From contig JAGVPA010000076.1 in the NCBI GenBank assembly GCA_020052445.1, forward strand, positions 1-36,775: DNA of 36,775 bases, written 5' to 3'. A program made the translations under genes and the position numbers. This document shows positions 13,671-20,934 of the stretch, piece by piece (within the stretch, counting starts at the first letter, position 1; each line of letters starts with the position of its first letter). The DNA comes from a bacterium (GTDB lineage: Bacteria > Patescibacteriota > Patescibacteriia > UBA9934 > GWF2-40-263). The notes beneath the pieces were generated by a model. It was given only the letters and a program-made list of their open reading frames with translations. It made no database searches and had not been told where the DNA came from.

Positions 13671-14930
13671 TCATTTTTTCACTTCTTCGTCAATCTCCAT
13701 CAACCGATTATATTTCTCCACCCGTTCCGAACGAGACAGTGAACCGGTTTTTATAAAGTCTGCATTCACCGCCACCGCCAAATCGGCAATCGTCGTATCG
13801 GCCGTCTCGCCGGAACGATGAGAGACTGAAACTTTGTAGCCAGCTTGTTTGGCCAGCATGATGGCATCGATGGTTTCGATTAGTGTGCCAATCTGATTTA
13901 ATTTTATCAAAATCGCATTTCCGGCTTTCTGTTCGATGCCTTTTCTTAATCTCTCGACATTTGTCACAAACAAATCGTCACCAACTAAAGAAATTTTTGA
14001 GCCGAGTTCTTTGGTAAGTTTTTGCCAACCTACCCAGTCGTCTTCAGCCAAACCATCTTCGAGCGAGATGATTGGATACTTGCTCACCCATTTTTTCCAC
14101 ATAGCAATCATTTCGTTCGAGGTTTTTGCACCACCATCTTTTTTCAATTGATAAACTTTTTTCTTGGCATCATAAAGTTCTGACGAAGCTGGATCGAGAG
14201 CGAATTTTACATCGGTGCCAATTTTGTAACCAGCCGACTTCACAGCTTTCACGAGCCATTGCAAAGCCTCTTCATTTTTTTTGAACGAAACAGCGAAACC
14301 ACCTTCATCACCAACTCCGGTTGAAAGTCCGGCTTTTTTCAAAAGAGCTCCGAGGGCGTGAAAAACTTCGGCCCCGCAACGAACTCGTTCGCGAAGTTTT
14401 TTCTGCTGCGGCACAATCATGAACTCCTGAAAATCCAAACACCAACCGGCGTGAGCGCCGCCGTTCAAAACATTCATGGTTGGGTATGGCATTTTGTAAG
14501 TTTTTTCTGGCAAGTCAAAAGTCCAACGCAAATGTTCGTAAAGAGGCACCCGACGGTGGCGAGCGGCCGCTTGAGCGCAGGCGAGTGAAACACCAAGAAT
14601 GGCGTTGGCTCCGAGCTTGGATTTATTGGCCGTGCCATCTAAAAAAACCAACTCCTTATCAATCTCACGTTGTCGCAAAACATCTTTTCCAACCAAGGCC
14701 TTACAAATTTTTGTGTTAACGTTTTTGACCGCTATCAAAACACCTTTGCCACCGTAACGTTTCGGATCACCGTCACGAAGCTCGAGCGCCTCGTGACTAC
14801 CAGTTGAAGCACCACTCGGAACAGAAGCCGAGCCGACGGTTCCATCGGTGAGCAAAACGGAAACTTTAAGAGTTGGGTTGCCACGAGAATCCAAGATTTC
14901 GTGGGCGTGAATGGTTTCTATCTTTGGCAT
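13671..14930 (-). CDS. eno: Enolase
   Basis: Converts 2-phosphoglycerate to phosphoenolpyruvate. 419 residues. Full set of signatures: [14 protein letters not shown] near the N terminus, [27 protein letters not shown], the catalytic region [39 protein letters not shown] with the catalytic Lys, and [19 protein letters not shown]. The C terminus is complete. No promoter is visible in the 106 bases up to the res gene, most of which is a repeat, so eno may depend on transcription from the restriction operon or from pgk upstream. Confidence 0.98.
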
Positions 14931-14942
14931 AATATTTGACGC

Positions 14943-14993
14943 CCCTCACCCCAACCCTCTCCCGATTCGTCCTCGGATATGAGGAGAGGGAGA
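14943..14993. repeat. Family D-like palindromic repeat
   Basis: CCCTCTCCCGATTCG and a complementary ATGAGGAGAGGGAGA arm, directly upstream of eno. Same style as the copies at 6481-6523 and 35628-35805. Confidence 0.65.
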
Positions 14994-15036
14994 TAATTAT
15001 TTTGGAGTAATGAAGGCTAAAATGAAAATAATATTA

Positions 15037-17274
15037 TTAATTTGCTAAATTCAAAAACTTCCAAACTTTCAAGTCATTTGGATTATACTCGTATTTCAAC
15101 TCATCATTATAACGCCAACTATTCTTTTCTTTCAAAACAATTCCACCATACAATCTTTTACCTTTCTTATTTTGCTCAACAATATATTTTGCTAATCCTT
15201 CGGCGCGTGATTTTGCGGTTTCAGCAGTAAGCCCGCCTTTTGTATCAAACAAACCAATGCGACCTTTCTGCATCACTATAAAATCAACATAAAACGGCTT
15301 TTCAATTCCATGCTCAATATGGGGTACAGCAAAATACGACCCATCTTTTGTTCCATTTTTAAACCACCATTCGACTGTTTTTGTTTTTTCTAAATACTCA
15401 ATAAAATCAACTTCAAGATCACTATCTTCTTCAGACAAATTTACTGTACCTATTCCTGATTTTTTAGTGTAGTACGGTTGTATTACCGACTTTTTATAAT
15501 CTTTCTTTGCGAAAGAGAGAGTGTAATTTATTACTTTTGGTACATTCCAAGGCTCTTCATTTTTTACTATCTCGTTTTTACCTTTTCCAACTTCTTCTTG
15601 ATACAGCTCTTTTGCAAGATTAATAGTATCAATCATAATTTGATGATTTTCTTCTGCAAGAACAGCGGCTTGAATTTTTGGCCACTCATCCTCATCTCGT
15701 GATGCTTCAAAAAATGAATAAATTGAGCTTTTTATACGACTAATTGAGCGTTGTTCGGGCTCAAACGGTGCAAGATTATTCCTGGCAAACATATCAAATG
15801 CATTTTGTAATTCAACTTCGTTTTTAGGAATATCGAGCGTTCCTTTTCTCTCTATACTTTTTGCTTCTTTGTCAGCATCAACAATACGACCACTAGCAAT
15901 CAAACTCGTTTTTAAAATACTGTGTTTAAATGAAAATTTTTCTTTAAGTTTTAATTTCTTTCCCGCTTCAATAAAAAGAGGCGTAAAGTCAGAAGAAAGA
16001 CGTGTTTCCTCACGGAAACGTTTTGAATGATAAGAGAGTAAGTCAATATTTTTGTAATTCTTAATTCTAAATCCAGTGAAAGTTGTAATGTAATCGCGAG
16101 ACAAATCCTCGGCAACGTTAATGTCTTGCAAGCTTGTAAAAACATAACCAACATTCAAATCTTGATCCGTATAATGTTTCTGCTCCGGCATACGCATAAT
16201 GCGTCCGAGTGTTTGAATAGAAAAAGTGATATTTTCCTCGTGCCATTGTCTAAACAAAACCAAAATCGTCGCACGTGGGCAATCCCAGCCCAATGAAATT
16301 GCTTGCTTAAATATCATTATCTCAACCTCATTCTCATTTTTTTCTATATTCGCCAAATTTATTTTATTATCTTTGTCAGAAAGATATATCGCAAGTCGTC
16401 CATTTTCCGTGGTGTAGCCAAATTTTTTGAGTAAAGCAATAATCTCGTCTTTTTTATCTGATACGCCCTGCATAGCGTCTGGCAATTGAATAAGCAAAAG
16501 CGGATTAACGCCCGAGTCTTCGGCTTCAAGCTTTTTCCGTAATTCAATTCGCTTTTTTAGTGCACTTTCCAGCACGAGTTCGTCAGCAGATTTATCGCTT
16601 TTCTTTTTATCAATAATGTAATGTTCAAAACCTGGATTGATTACGATTTCTTTCTTGATCATTTCCTCGTCTTTCACATCCTTGAGTTCTACTTCAACAA
16701 TTCTGTTTACATTATTTAGCTGTGGAGTAGCCGAAACTTCAATCGTTATTTTTGGTCCAATGTCTTGAATCAACTCCCTTGATTTCTCGCTGTTCGCCGT
16801 GTGGTGACTTTCGTCAATGACAAGAAAGATCATTCTGCCCTCGTCTTTTGTTCGAGCAATAATACTTGTCAGATTGTTATCTCGTTCGTTTGCACGAACA
16901 TACAAATTATCTTTTTTGTTGATGCTTGCCCAGTTCAAAAACAAAATCTCGTTTTCGCTAATTCTGCGGTCATCCAAATCTTCAAAATAAGAGCATTTTA
17001 TTCCTACACCGTTTTGGTCATAGTATTTTCTCAAATTATTTCTGCTCTGGTCATGCAGTTTATTGACAGCAATCCAAACGAACGAAAACTTTTTTCCATC
17101 TATACGCGAATCAATCAAGCGTTTCAAAAACTCCGCCATCATCAGCGTTTTTCCCGAGCCAGTCGGTGCTTTAAAAATACAAACCTTATTTCCGTCTGCA
17201 TCCAAAAGTTCATCGATTTCTCTTTTCAGCTTTACGATTGAATTTTCTTGATAATTTTTAAATTCAAATATCAT
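15037..17274 (-). CDS. Type III restriction enzyme, Res subunit
   Basis: The helicase/nuclease subunit that uses ATP to scan DNA and cleaves unmethylated sites together with Mod. 745 residues, somewhat shorter than well-studied Res proteins. Walker A is KAPTGSGKT (35-43), the DExH box LVIDESHHTA (151-160), and motif VI LGRIMRMPEQ near 355. The C-terminal PD-(D/E)xK-type nuclease is suggested by YVDFIVMQKGRIGLFDTKGG near 660-680. The start lies one base after the stop of the HEPN-like gene in a TAATATG junction, so it is tightly coupled to it. The operon is visibly more AT-rich than its neighbours. Confidence 0.93.
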   Translation of the reverse strand: MIFEFKNYQENSIVKLKREIDELLDADGNKVCIFKAPTGSGKTLMMAEFLKRLIDSRIDGKKFSFVWIAVNKLHDQSRNNLRKYYDQNGVGIKCSYFEDLDDRRISENEILFLNWASINKKDNLYVRANERDNNLTSIIARTKDEGRMIFLVIDESHHTANSEKSRELIQDIGPKITIEVSATPQLNNVNRIVEVELKDVKDEEMIKKEIVINPGFEHYIIDKKKSDKSADELVLESALKKRIELRKKLEAEDSGVNPLLLIQLPDAMQGVSDKKDEIIALLKKFGYTTENGRLAIYLSDKDNKINLANIEKNENEVEIMIFKQAISLGWDCPRATILVLFRQWHEENITFSIQTLGRIMRMPEQKHYTDQDLNVGYVFTSLQDINVAEDLSRDYITTFTGFRIKNYKNIDLLSYHSKRFREETRLSSDFTPLFIEAGKKLKLKEKFSFKHSILKTSLIASGRIVDADKEAKSIERKGTLDIPKNEVELQNAFDMFARNNLAPFEPEQRSISRIKSSIYSFFEASRDEDEWPKIQAAVLAEENHQIMIDTINLAKELYQEEVGKGKNEIVKNEEPWNVPKVINYTLSFAKKDYKKSVIQPYYTKKSGIGTVNLSEEDSDLEVDFIEYLEKTKTVEWWFKNGTKDGSYFAVPHIEHGIEKPFYVDFIVMQKGRIGLFDTKGGLTAETAKSRAEGLAKYIVEQNKKGKRLYGGIVLKEKNSWRYNDELKYEYNPNDLKVWKFLNLAN

Positions 17275-17275
17275 A

Positions 17276-17863
17276 TTATTTGTAATTTTTTATAATAAAA
17301 GAAAAATCCGATATTAATAGTACTAAATCAGCTGGAGTCAGAAATTCATTAAATACTATTTTTTGAAGATGGAATGATTCTTCGATGGTTTTACCTCTCC
17401 AGCCAACCGGTAAATCAAGTTTATTCTTTTCATCAAAAAAGAATTTATTATTATGAGCCGCCCCATTTCTTATATGCTTGGTAAATTTAAAAAGAGTAGA
17501 ATTATTTTTAATAATATAATTCTGATATTTTGAAAATTGTAGAATATCAAACAACGAAATTGCAATTTGCCTTGCTTGAAAATTCATTAAGCCAACAATA
17601 TTGGCTTCAACCTTATCCCCAATCAACTTTAATTCAACAGATTTATTAAATGAGGTTAAAATATCCCGAATATCATATTTTAGACATTTTAAGTCATCAT
17701 ACTTTACTGAAATTTCTAGTTCGCTTTTTTCTCCTTTGTGTCCGTTGATTAACGCTTTTTGAAAATCTGGCATTGACATCATGTTAATTCCAGCTAAAAA
17801 GAACCTAAAATTATTTAATAACTCATTGAAAATGGGATGAATATATATTTCTTTATCTTCCAT
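17276..17863 (-). CDS. HEPN-like protein inside the type III R-M operon
   Basis: 195 residues, mostly helical, no signal peptide. RNGAAH (132-137) fits the R-x4-H active site of HEPN ribonucleases and lies in a helix after hydrophobic and aromatic residues, as is usual for that superfamily. No known subfamily is recognised. It sits between mod and res with identical TAATATG junctions on both sides, one base apart, so all three are translated from one message. Its likely role is defence: an RNase that acts if restriction fails, or a regulator of Res. Function is inference; the motif is short and could occur by chance, but position and fold type support it. Confidence 0.65.
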   Translation of the reverse strand: MEDKEIYIHPIFNELLNNFRFFLAGINMMSMPDFQKALINGHKGEKSELEISVKYDDLKCLKYDIRDILTSFNKSVELKLIGDKVEANIVGLMNFQARQIAISLFDILQFSKYQNYIIKNNSTLFKFTKHIRNGAAHNNKFFFDEKNKLDLPVGWRGKTIEESFHLQKIVFNEFLTPADLVLLISDFSFIIKNYK

Positions 17864-17864
17864 A

Positions 17865-19676
17865 TTATTTGAAAATCTCCCGATACACTTTCAGTATCAC
17901 TTCAGGAATTGCACAAAGCGTTACTTTGCTTTTCACGTCAGTAAATTTTTTTGTGTGTGGATCATCACCCATAGAGAAAACATAGGTGTTGAAATACCCC
18001 TCTATTTTCTTGATTGCTTTTTTATAATCTTCTATCGCTTCCTCGTAAAAAATAACGCCAACATATTTATCGGTATTCTTAAAAATCTTAAACTCCGATG
18101 TTTCTTGGATGAGCTCAAAAGCATTTTCCAAAATACAGAGCATGTCCGTTGATTCCTTAACCAATTTTCGCTTATTTTTATCAGTTGGCTCCGCTTCCAC
18201 AAAATCAGTAGTATAATATTTTAAATTTCCTCCCGTTCCCTCGATTTTTTCACCATTTTCAGTTTTATAACCACTTATAACTTTACAAACTCTTGGATAG
18301 CAAACTTCTGTACAAATATTATTTTCATTGTTTGTACAAAGAATGAACCTACGATTTCCACCATCCTCTACGTTTTGCTTAAGGACCGCATGGCCTGTCG
18401 TTCCTGATCCAGCGAAAAAATCTAAAACGGTTATCGACTTACTTTCAAATAATGTTATTAGAATTTTTATCAGACCAGTGTTTTTAGGATTACTAAACGG
18501 AACTTTATCAATTCCAAAAACCTCCTTCAATTCTGCACCAGCTGATGTTGTTTTAACGTCTATTTCGTATTCTTTTTTTTCATTGTTAACTATTGCTTCA
18601 TATTTTTTATTGATTATTAAACTTTTTAGTCTTATTTTTGTACTAAAATTTTTCTCATATATACTTTCGTTTTTGAATTCAAGAGCACCATTTTCAAAAA
18701 GTTCAATGATTTTGGATTTTGTGTATGTATTTAATACAAATTTATTATTCAAATATGAATAGTACCTTTTATATCCCGCACTTAATAATTTTTCATCTGT
18801 TTGATTGATATTTTTTTCGATTTTAATTTCTATCTTATTTACATTTTTATTATAATAAAGACTATAATGTTTTGCTGAATTAAAATCATCTACAATGGGA
18901 TTAAATTTATTTTCTCCTACAAGAACCCTTTTACCGCTATTGTGTACGTAAACTCCATTCTCATCAATTGCTAAATCGCTAAATTGTTTAGGAATATTTT
19001 CAATAAAATGACTTTTATTTTTATCTTTAGCATATATTAAGCAATAATCATTACTTACAGATATAAAATCCGAATTTTTTCTTCCCTTCGGATTATTTTC
19101 AACTGATAACATTGAAATGAAATTATTTTCTCCAAAAATTTCATCACAGAGCATTTTTAATGGTGCTAATTCATTATCGTCTATACTTATAAAAATCACA
19201 CCATCTTTTTTAAGAAGAAAACGAGAAAGTTTTAAGCGTTTTTCCATGAAGGACAACCATTTGCTATGTCTAAACGGATCTTCACTGTCTATAAATTTAT
19301 CATTGTATATAAAATCATTATGTCCAGTATTATAAGGGGGGTCAATATAAATTAGGTCAATAGATTCTTGGTGGGTAAAGTTTAAAACTGCAAGAGAATG
19401 ATAATTATCACCTTCAATTAATATATTAACCAACTTTGATTTATCAGATTCAATTGCTTTCTTTTTTATCTCTTTCAAAACAGGAAATGGCTTGCCTGCC
19501 ACTTCATTGGGAAACATTTCATTTGGAGTTCGAGCGTCAGGGTTTACAAGAATATCAATTTTTTCCTCCGGCAAATCACGATGCCAAACAAGCCCATAGG
19601 TTGTGCTTTTTATTTTGACAATTTCCTTGATCAACTCATCTTTTGACCAATCGTCGTAGTTATTTTTCTTCGACAT
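17865..19676 (-). CDS. Type III DNA methyltransferase, Mod subunit
   Basis: Adenine-N6 methyltransferase that also reads the target site for the Res subunit. 603 residues. The order DPPYNTG (112-118) then FAGSGTTGHAV (about 415-425) is that of beta-class enzymes, as in known type III Mod proteins. The region between them is the variable target-recognition domain. The start at 19676 (MSKKNNYDDW) is chosen because the longer frame upstream runs through the pgk C terminus. There is no SD. No simple-sequence tract for phase variation is seen in the gene. Confidence 0.93.
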   Translation of the reverse strand: MSKKNNYDDWSKDELIKEIVKIKSTTYGLVWHRDLPEEKIDILVNPDARTPNEMFPNEVAGKPFPVLKEIKKKAIESDKSKLVNILIEGDNYHSLAVLNFTHQESIDLIYIDPPYNTGHNDFIYNDKFIDSEDPFRHSKWLSFMEKRLKLSRFLLKKDGVIFISIDDNELAPLKMLCDEIFGENNFISMLSVENNPKGRKNSDFISVSNDYCLIYAKDKNKSHFIENIPKQFSDLAIDENGVYVHNSGKRVLVGENKFNPIVDDFNSAKHYSLYYNKNVNKIEIKIEKNINQTDEKLLSAGYKRYYSYLNNKFVLNTYTKSKIIELFENGALEFKNESIYEKNFSTKIRLKSLIINKKYEAIVNNEKKEYEIDVKTTSAGAELKEVFGIDKVPFSNPKNTGLIKILITLFESKSITVLDFFAGSGTTGHAVLKQNVEDGGNRRFILCTNNENNICTEVCYPRVCKVISGYKTENGEKIEGTGGNLKYYTTDFVEAEPTDKNKRKLVKESTDMLCILENAFELIQETSEFKIFKNTDKYVGVIFYEEAIEDYKKAIKKIEGYFNTYVFSMGDDPHTKKFTDVKSKVTLCAIPEVILKVYREIFK

Positions 19677-19710
19677 AATTTTAAAGATTCGTAATTCGCA
19701 CCCCCCAGAT

Positions 19711-20898
19711 TTAACTTTCAAGTGCCTCCAACCCAGGCAACTTCTTGCCCGATAAAAACTCGAGCATGGCACCACCACCAGTTGAAACCAAAGTAAATCG
19801 TTCGGCCAGATTGGCTGCCTCGATAACTGGAACGGTGTCACCACCGCCAATCACCGTTTTAGCCTTACCGGTTCGAGCAGCGATGATTTTGGCCATGGAG
19901 TAAGTGCCCTCACAAAATTTTTCGACTTCACAGTAACCGAGCGGACCGTTCCAGACGATGGTTTTAGCTTCTTGAATAATGGTCGTAAAATTTTCTAAAG
20001 TTTTTTTACCAATATCAATGGCACGATCTTTATCATCAATTTTATCCACCGAAACTAATCTGGGTTTTGATTGAGCACTTAGTCGTGAGGCGACAAAAAC
20101 ATCTTCTGGTAAAACAATTTTGCTTGAATATTTTTTCAAAATCTTTTTGGCCGAAACTACACCTTCCTTATCAAAAGCCGACTGACCAACTTTTTTTCCT
20201 TGGGCTACCAAAAAAGCATTGGCTAAAGCGCCGCCGATTAAAGCTTTATCGATTCGCGGCAAGAGTGCCTCAAGTACCGGCAATTTATCGTCCATTTTTA
20301 AACCACCCATGACTAAAACAAAAGGTCGCTTTGGTTCACCTTCGACCAAAGATTCCAAAACCGAAACTTCTTGGGACAAAAGTGGACCAGCGTAAGACGG
20401 AAGTTCTTCGGTAATCGCGTCAACCGAGGCATGAGCACGATGAGAGACCGCGAACGCATCGTTGATATAAATATCGCCGAGTGAGGCCAGTTGTTGAGCG
20501 AAGGCTTTGCTATTTTGTTCTTCGCCGGGGTTGAAACGTAAATTTTCCAGCATGAGCATGTCGCCGTCGTGCATAGCTGAAATCATTCGAGCCGTTCGAT
20601 CACCAACCACATCGTGACAAAGTTTTACTTTGACTCCAAACAATTCTCCTAAACGCTTGGCAATCGGCGCGTTGGAAAAGGCGGCCACTCGTTTACCGTC
20701 CGGTCGACCGCGGTGCGACAAAATAATAATTCGCGCCCCATGCTGACGCAACCACTCCAGACCAACCGCCGCCCGAGCAATTCGACCCTGAGGACCATCA
20801 ATAGCCAAACCGCCTTTAACCGGCACGTTACCATCAATTCTAACCAAGACCCGTTTGCCGCGGAGAGAATTGGCATTTGATAGACGACGAAGCTTCAT
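19711..20898 (-). CDS. pgk: Phosphoglycerate kinase
   Basis: Makes ATP and 3-phosphoglycerate from 1,3-bisphosphoglycerate. 395 residues from the ATG at 20898; a TTG eight codons upstream would extend it, but the ATG fits family N termini (MKLRRLSN...KRVLVRIDGNVPV). Motifs: IILSHRGRPDG, LMLENLRF, YINDAFAVSHRAHAS, a conserved VMGGLKMDDK-type strand, IVWNGPLGYCE and the C-terminal VIGGGDTV...VSTGGGAMLEFLSG. Complete. The type III restriction operon starts 34 nt below the stop, so it may share pgk transcription. Confidence 0.97.
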   Translation of the reverse strand: MKLRRLSNANSLRGKRVLVRIDGNVPVKGGLAIDGPQGRIARAAVGLEWLRQHGARIIILSHRGRPDGKRVAAFSNAPIAKRLGELFGVKVKLCHDVVGDRTARMISAMHDGDMLMLENLRFNPGEEQNSKAFAQQLASLGDIYINDAFAVSHRAHASVDAITEELPSYAGPLLSQEVSVLESLVEGEPKRPFVLVMGGLKMDDKLPVLEALLPRIDKALIGGALANAFLVAQGKKVGQSAFDKEGVVSAKKILKKYSSKIVLPEDVFVASRLSAQSKPRLVSVDKIDDKDRAIDIGKKTLENFTTIIQEAKTIVWNGPLGYCEVEKFCEGTYSMAKIIAARTGKAKTVIGGGDTVPVIEAANLAERFTLVSTGGGAMLEFLSGKKLPGLEALES

Positions 20899-20934
20899 AT
20901 TTTTTTCATCATTAGGATACAAGGAAAATCGGGA

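Follow-up and report, generated by a model that had tools for sequence, protein, structure and literature searches.

Small HEPN RNase genes in or beside restriction-modification (R-M) operons are already known, as are defence genes nested within other operons, type I R-M operons among them. An association of HEPN genes with R-M operons has been shown for at least 16 clades (Anantharaman 2013, PMC3710099), and the R-M-linked families described there, pEK499_p136, Abi2/AbiF/AbiD, AbiU2 and ApeA, have the same R-N-x3-H motif as the protein reported here. PrrC, encoded in the type Ic EcoprrI operon, and RloC are likewise HEPN RNases whose genes lie inside an R-M operon and provide a back-up defence; in both, the nuclease is gated by an ABC ATPase at the N-terminus. 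EcoprrI keeps PrrC silent until an anti-restriction peptide releases it, and PrrC is the nearest known model for the restraint of a HEPN nuclease. Other defence genes found within defence operons include TgvAB and RloF (GmrSD-like), both inside type I R-M operons (PMC11411939, PMC4619093), and in Pseudomonas islands type I R-M loci harbour PrrC among other embedded systems (PMC12629846). A third gene has also been described in type III R-M, namely the extra helicase-like gene of m4C systems (PMC8259958).

The locus examined here differs from each of these. In contrast to PrrC and RloC, its HEPN-like product, encoded in a type III operon, is a protein of just 195 aa in which Pfam finds no ATPase domain and hence no ABC ATPase gate, although it may work in a PrrC-like manner. 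Unlike the families of PMC3710099, its family falls below every Pfam HEPN cut-off, and the position that it occupies also takes non-HEPN cargo; the main text of that paper does not describe a type III mod-HEPN-res arrangement. It has no adjacent nucleotidyltransferase gene, as a HEPN/MNT toxin-antitoxin pair would. The extra gene of PMC8259958 is constant, ATPase-like and located 5' of mod and res, whereas the gene here lies between the two and is variable. Finally, in the accessible parts of the sources the hosts reported for embedded defence genes are type I R-M and Hma, whereas here the host is a type III mod-res pair that accepts many alternative cargoes, a complete CBASS among them.

The window, by which we mean the whole 36,775-nt stretch of DNA that was analysed, contains the following features around the locus.

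20922-19711, minus strand: pgk, upstream neighbour of mod
17865..19676, minus strand: mod, type III DNA methyltransferase subunit, 603 aa from ATG (PADLOC and Pfam)
17861..17867, minus strand: mod/HEPN junction TAATATG (TAA-T-ATG, 1-nt spacer), left edge of the slot
17276..17863, minus strand: HEPN-like gene, 195 aa, ATG start, present cargo of the mod-res slot (ORF, motif, AF2 model)
17453..17470, minus strand: R-N-x3-H motif RNGAAH, residues 132-137, predicted RNase active site
17272..17278, minus strand: HEPN/res junction TAATATG (TAA-T-ATG, 1-nt spacer), right edge of the slot
15037..17274, minus strand: res, type III restriction subunit, 745 aa, helicase and PD-(D/E)xK-like C-terminus
14930-13671, minus strand: eno, downstream neighbour of res

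The R-M genes have the make-up of a type III system, an N6_N4_Mtase mod beside a ResIII res with a PD-(D/E)xK-like end. The mod gene is recognized by PADLOC (MTase_III, 7e-83) and Pfam (N6_N4_Mtase, 4e-35), and its translation contains DPPY and FAGSGTTGHA motifs; its start, placed by position after pgk, is likely the ATG at 19676 because the alternative TTG at 19850 lies inside pgk. The res gene (Pfam ResIII, 1.8e-20; PADLOC REase_III, 1e-17) encodes APTGSGKT, DESH and YVDF..LFDTKG, the nuclease motif being read by eye. The HEPN-like gene, which is single copy in its genome, stands between mod and res with TAATATG at both junctions, as the original prediction had it; the strand, which that prediction left unstated, is the minus strand. 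Judging from the spacing, the three genes are probably translated together. Within the operon the only neighbours of the HEPN-like gene are mod and res, and neither is antitoxin-like.

The mod-HEPN-res operon is inserted whole between pgk and eno (13671-20922), two genes that are almost adjacent in most relatives showing both, and it probably uses the glycolytic transcript. In a genome of the same genus (G001), a different gene of 248 aa lies between pgk and eno. The genome under study also contains a second type III mod-res pair (L084, G000:C99:18000-27887), with a res that is 50% identical, an empty slot (11-nt gap) and a RhuM-like gene after res.

The mod-HEPN-res arrangement is more than chance, because homologues of the HEPN-like gene recur beside R-M genes and because related operons fill the same junction with other genes. 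Relatives of Res were sought in 381 genomes of the class and 380 of the phylum (Patescibacteria), which yielded 54 loci with an examinable mod-res junction; in most of these, mod and res abut or overlap. In a tree built from 53 Res rows (G527 was left off), the slot is occupied in 11 of the 21 copies of one clade versus 1 of the 32 outside it, counts that depend on the genome sample, all surveyed loci being from MAGs. The corresponding Fisher p of 4e-5 is a guide only, the clade having been chosen post hoc and its tips being related. The view that type III systems are normally two-gene thus holds for most relatives but not for this Patescibacteria clade, with inserts in half of its copies. The occupants consist of one extra gene or a gene pair, nearly all different, and the spacers are mostly 1-14 nt. 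The filled junctions, other than that of the window, are as follows.

G477: CAP12-type TIR (CAP12-PCTIR, 5e-39; PADLOC PDC-S35, 1.6e-77)
G705 and G528: SLFN_AlbA_2
G123 (L121): SLFN_AlbA_2 and a 239-aa protein without significant Pfam match
G698: OLD-like AAA ATPase and TOPRIM
G730: 4-fold beta flower and a small protein with a hydrophobic segment
G438 (L120, G438:C3:134000-146000): CBASS, comprising a CD-NTase (PADLOC Cyclase, 6e-105) and Cap15 (2.5e-34)
G204 (L122, G204:C73): RNase H and DUF3800
G480 and G740: proteins of 283 and 250 aa
G527: short ORF before a broken res
G589 (contig edge, mod out of view): protein with RHQSVAH, AbiU2-type HEPN by look, without Pfam support

The CBASS operon is tightly packed, with spacers of 2 nt between mod and the cyclase, 1 nt between the cyclase and Cap15, and 2 nt between Cap15 and res. 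Cargo changes between close relatives on the tree: sister tips carry HEPN (window) versus TIR (G477), and the close tips G705, G023 and G589 have AlbA_2, an empty slot and the AbiU2-like gene, respectively. The slot proteins of 283 aa (L082, 4858-5709, minus strand), 250 aa (L085, 2413-3165, minus strand) and 239 aa (L121) gave no significant Pfam match and are candidate defence effectors. Shedu (SduA_C) genes stand directly after res in G574 and G600 (L091, L092), so defence genes gather downstream of res as well. By eye, radC-like genes lie just upstream of mod in L120, L121, L083, L086 and L088.

The edges of the exchange are exact. In the closest relative, G477, res is 90% identical in protein and 82% in DNA. 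The DNA homology with the window spans mod to 3 nt beyond its stop and restarts 3 nt before the res ATG, and the genes between these edges, HEPN and TIR, are unrelated. The two operons are at different chromosomal sites, that of the window between pgk and eno and that of G477 flanked by a ligA-like gene upstream and a gatC/gatA-like pair downstream. In G204 (L122), a shortened second res start (ATGCAACTCAAAATCTACCAATAA) lies between the RNase H and DUF3800 genes, directly after RNase H, and is a trace of stepwise cargo gain. G698 (L083, G698:C14, 9106-10748) shows a second unit at the contig end, downstream of mod-OLD-res, made of a mod 3' end (41 nt at 90%), AlbA_2 and a res 5' end (77 nt at 97%), which reflects either slot units repeated in tandem or strain differences within the assembly. 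Exchange probably proceeds by homologous recombination via the conserved mod 3' and res 5' sequences.

Homologues of the HEPN-like protein are sparse. At E <= 0.001 they were found in 3 of 96 sampled relatives' genomes, one of these (L003) being rejected as a spurious match antisense inside a mod gene, and in 6 of 380 phylum genomes. A profile search at the same threshold found them in 9 of 381 class genomes, a tally that includes one row with stops (G536), and a pattern search of genome contigs added 18 loci, the last two of which (L031, L032) are Abi_2-type proteins. No HEPN homologue was found in plasmids, plasmid and phage searches with Res gave partial matches only, and viral contigs contained no relatives of Res or HEPN. 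Six of the 13 Patescibacteria members adjoin R-M genes, of five kinds (p ~2e-5 under the assumption that 5% of genes touch an R-M gene), and roughly half of the family has no R-M gene next to it. The mod-HEPN-res order itself, whose recurrence the original prediction had raised, appears once more, in Nomurabacteria (L022). There a family member, whose start is uncertain in that no ATG precedes the conserved N-terminus, lies between the mod (TypeIII_RM_meth, 1.5e-20) and res (ResIII, 6e-32) of a canonical type III system that differs in kind from that of the window and is unrelated to it. Other members stand beside an EcoEI-type hsdR that is preceded by an apparent hsdS end (L026), an Eco47II-type REase and methyltransferase (L014/L020), a type ISP enzyme (L017), and an EcoRI-type methyltransferase followed by RhuM-Fic (L044). 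PIN/NYN-like genes, identified by eye, are next to the members L018/L019, L025 and L027 and are a possible second recurring partner. The genome with CBASS in its slot, G438, has a HEPN member elsewhere (L011), near an N6 methylase.

Our preferred interpretation, held with moderate confidence, is that a HEPN endoribonuclease, probably an abortive-infection RNase, is the present occupant of an exchangeable defence slot in a Patescibacteria type III clade. The slot is occupied by different genes between exact edges, its occupant in the window bears a conserved active-site signature, and the family of that occupant recurs at R-M loci. Through tight operon packing, the cargo would be transcribed, and probably translated, together with mod and res, and it would be exchanged as an exact ORF, from the mod stop to the res start. 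The HEPN protein would cut RNA, halting the cell or the phage once infection gets past restriction; the back-up abortive role proposed in the original prediction is plausible. Because the HEPN protein has neither an antitoxin nor a sensor domain, external restraint would be needed, and the Mod/Res complex may well keep the protein inactive or provide its signal, much as EcoprrI does for PrrC.

The alternative that survives best, and that we regard as a substantial possibility, is that the operon is only a parking place, in which a self-contained abortive HEPN gains expression and travels with a mobile R-M operon, with no sensing or control by Mod/Res. Several observations are consistent with it: (i) The systems that the slot takes are unrelated, one of them being a full CBASS that brings its own cyclase, and the CBASS, OLD and AlbA_2 cargoes are probably self-sensing, which favours a parking place over Mod/Res control. 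(ii) HEPN homologues are also found on their own or next to Schlafen, NYN-like, DUF1643 and RhuM genes. (iii) Protection by V. cholerae TgvAB, whose genes lie within a type I R-M operon, does not require HsdR activity (PMC11411939). However, the HEPN protein here lacks both a sensor domain and an antitoxin, its family is found repeatedly beside five R-M kinds, and the occupants in its own subclade (HEPN, TIR, AbiU2-like HEPN, and beta-flower with a small membrane-type protein) are effector-like. Gating by the R-M system and simple parking thus appear about equally likely, and under either we hold that the RNase would be an abortive or anti-RNA effector.

Both possibilities presuppose a HEPN nuclease, and it is unlikely, in our estimate, that the product is instead some other helical protein with a convergent motif or an inactive RNA-binding form. 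R132, N133 and H137, the positions whose conservation had been proposed as a check, are invariant in 16 aligned homologues with identity down to 20%, and position 106 is D or E in 16/16 (12/13 in a second alignment). These residues supply the Rx4-6H motif of the HEPN superfamily (here Rx4H, R132...H137), a polar residue (N, D or H in the superfamily) directly after the arginine (N133) and an acidic residue in the helix (90-110) preceding the motif helix. The genome-contig homologues were retrieved with a pattern that itself includes the motif, which partly accounts for their agreement, but eight independent relatives recovered by whole-protein or profile search all keep it. In the AF2 model of the 195-aa protein (pLDDT 88.8), the motif ends the third long helix and the acidic residue lies one helix earlier; the model of a shorter homologue (pLDDT 93.9) has the same placement, which is also that described for HEPN RNases (PMC3710099, sections 6 and 7). 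The helix order and motif position fit a four-helix bundle in both models.

Comparison with solved HEPN structures, in contrast, yielded no significant fold or profile match. Foldseek searches of the PDB with the two models and of viral structures returned nothing at E <= 0.001, although this method often misses remote helical folds. The best VIA-align Z scores for the two models, 3.5 and 4.2, were to unrelated helical proteins, and matches to Csm6, a HEPN RNase that came up with both models, lay within noise (5yjc: Z 2.8, rmsd 3.6 A, 85 aligned; 6tug: Z 3.8, rmsd 4.0 A, 87 aligned). Searches of PDB sequences with phmmer and the profile gave nothing relevant. Across the 16 members, all Pfam matches to HEPN families were sub-threshold and amid unrelated weak ones, pEK499_p136 in four members and Abi_2 and Swt1-like in one each, the nearest being pEK499_p136 and Abi_2. 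The pEK499_p136 (PF18736) matches had E up to 0.1 (best 0.001), and the 195-aa protein itself scored 15.6 bits against a cut-off of 26.6. In hhalign, alignments of the family with single pEK499_p136 and AbiU2-like sequences were weak and centred mainly on the motif. The HEPN-like reading of the original prediction is thus borne out by conserved residues and predicted topology, and neither outcome that the prediction named as refuting it came about, with matches to solved HEPN structures too weak to prove the fold. We conclude that the 195-aa protein very probably belongs to the HEPN superfamily and take it as a divergent HEPN family rather than a member of PF18736; its active-site residues predict RNase activity.

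Similarly unlikely is a dedicated control gene, whereby the HEPN RNase would cleave the polycistronic mRNA or host RNA and so delay or limit Res during host methylation. The HEPN-like gene is directly upstream of res on the same transcript, and synthesis of EcoP15I Res is reported to be delayed (cited in PMC12707154). However, sister operons with a close Res have no insert or unrelated cargo, indicating that the R-M system does not need the HEPN protein. The suggestion in the original prediction of a control on Res, like any HEPN-specific part in the R-M mechanism, is disfavoured, as unrelated defence genes share the position. That the inserts are mis-joined MAG contigs is scarcely credible, for although every locus comes from MAGs and the G698 contig ends in a repeat, the junctions are exact, in frame and a few nucleotides apart in many independent genomes, with both flanks of one R-M type and a different cargo each time.

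A broader and more tentative idea, which we consider possible if doubtful, is that some type III operons serve as two-layer immune platforms, in which Mod/Res would license whatever effector is plugged into the mod-res slot (HEPN RNase, TIR NADase or CBASS), via its failure, inhibition or translocation state. In the literature searched, in which coverage of subscription journals and preprints is thin and priority is therefore not firm, we found no prior description of an exchangeable type III mod-res slot and no CBASS inside an R-M operon. The slot offers a route to effector discovery, namely reading whatever stands between mod and res, and the natural swaps on nearly identical R-M backbones are test material for restriction-enzyme control of abortive effectors. 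For the organisms themselves, the slot shows how gene-poor Patescibacteria may layer defences cheaply.
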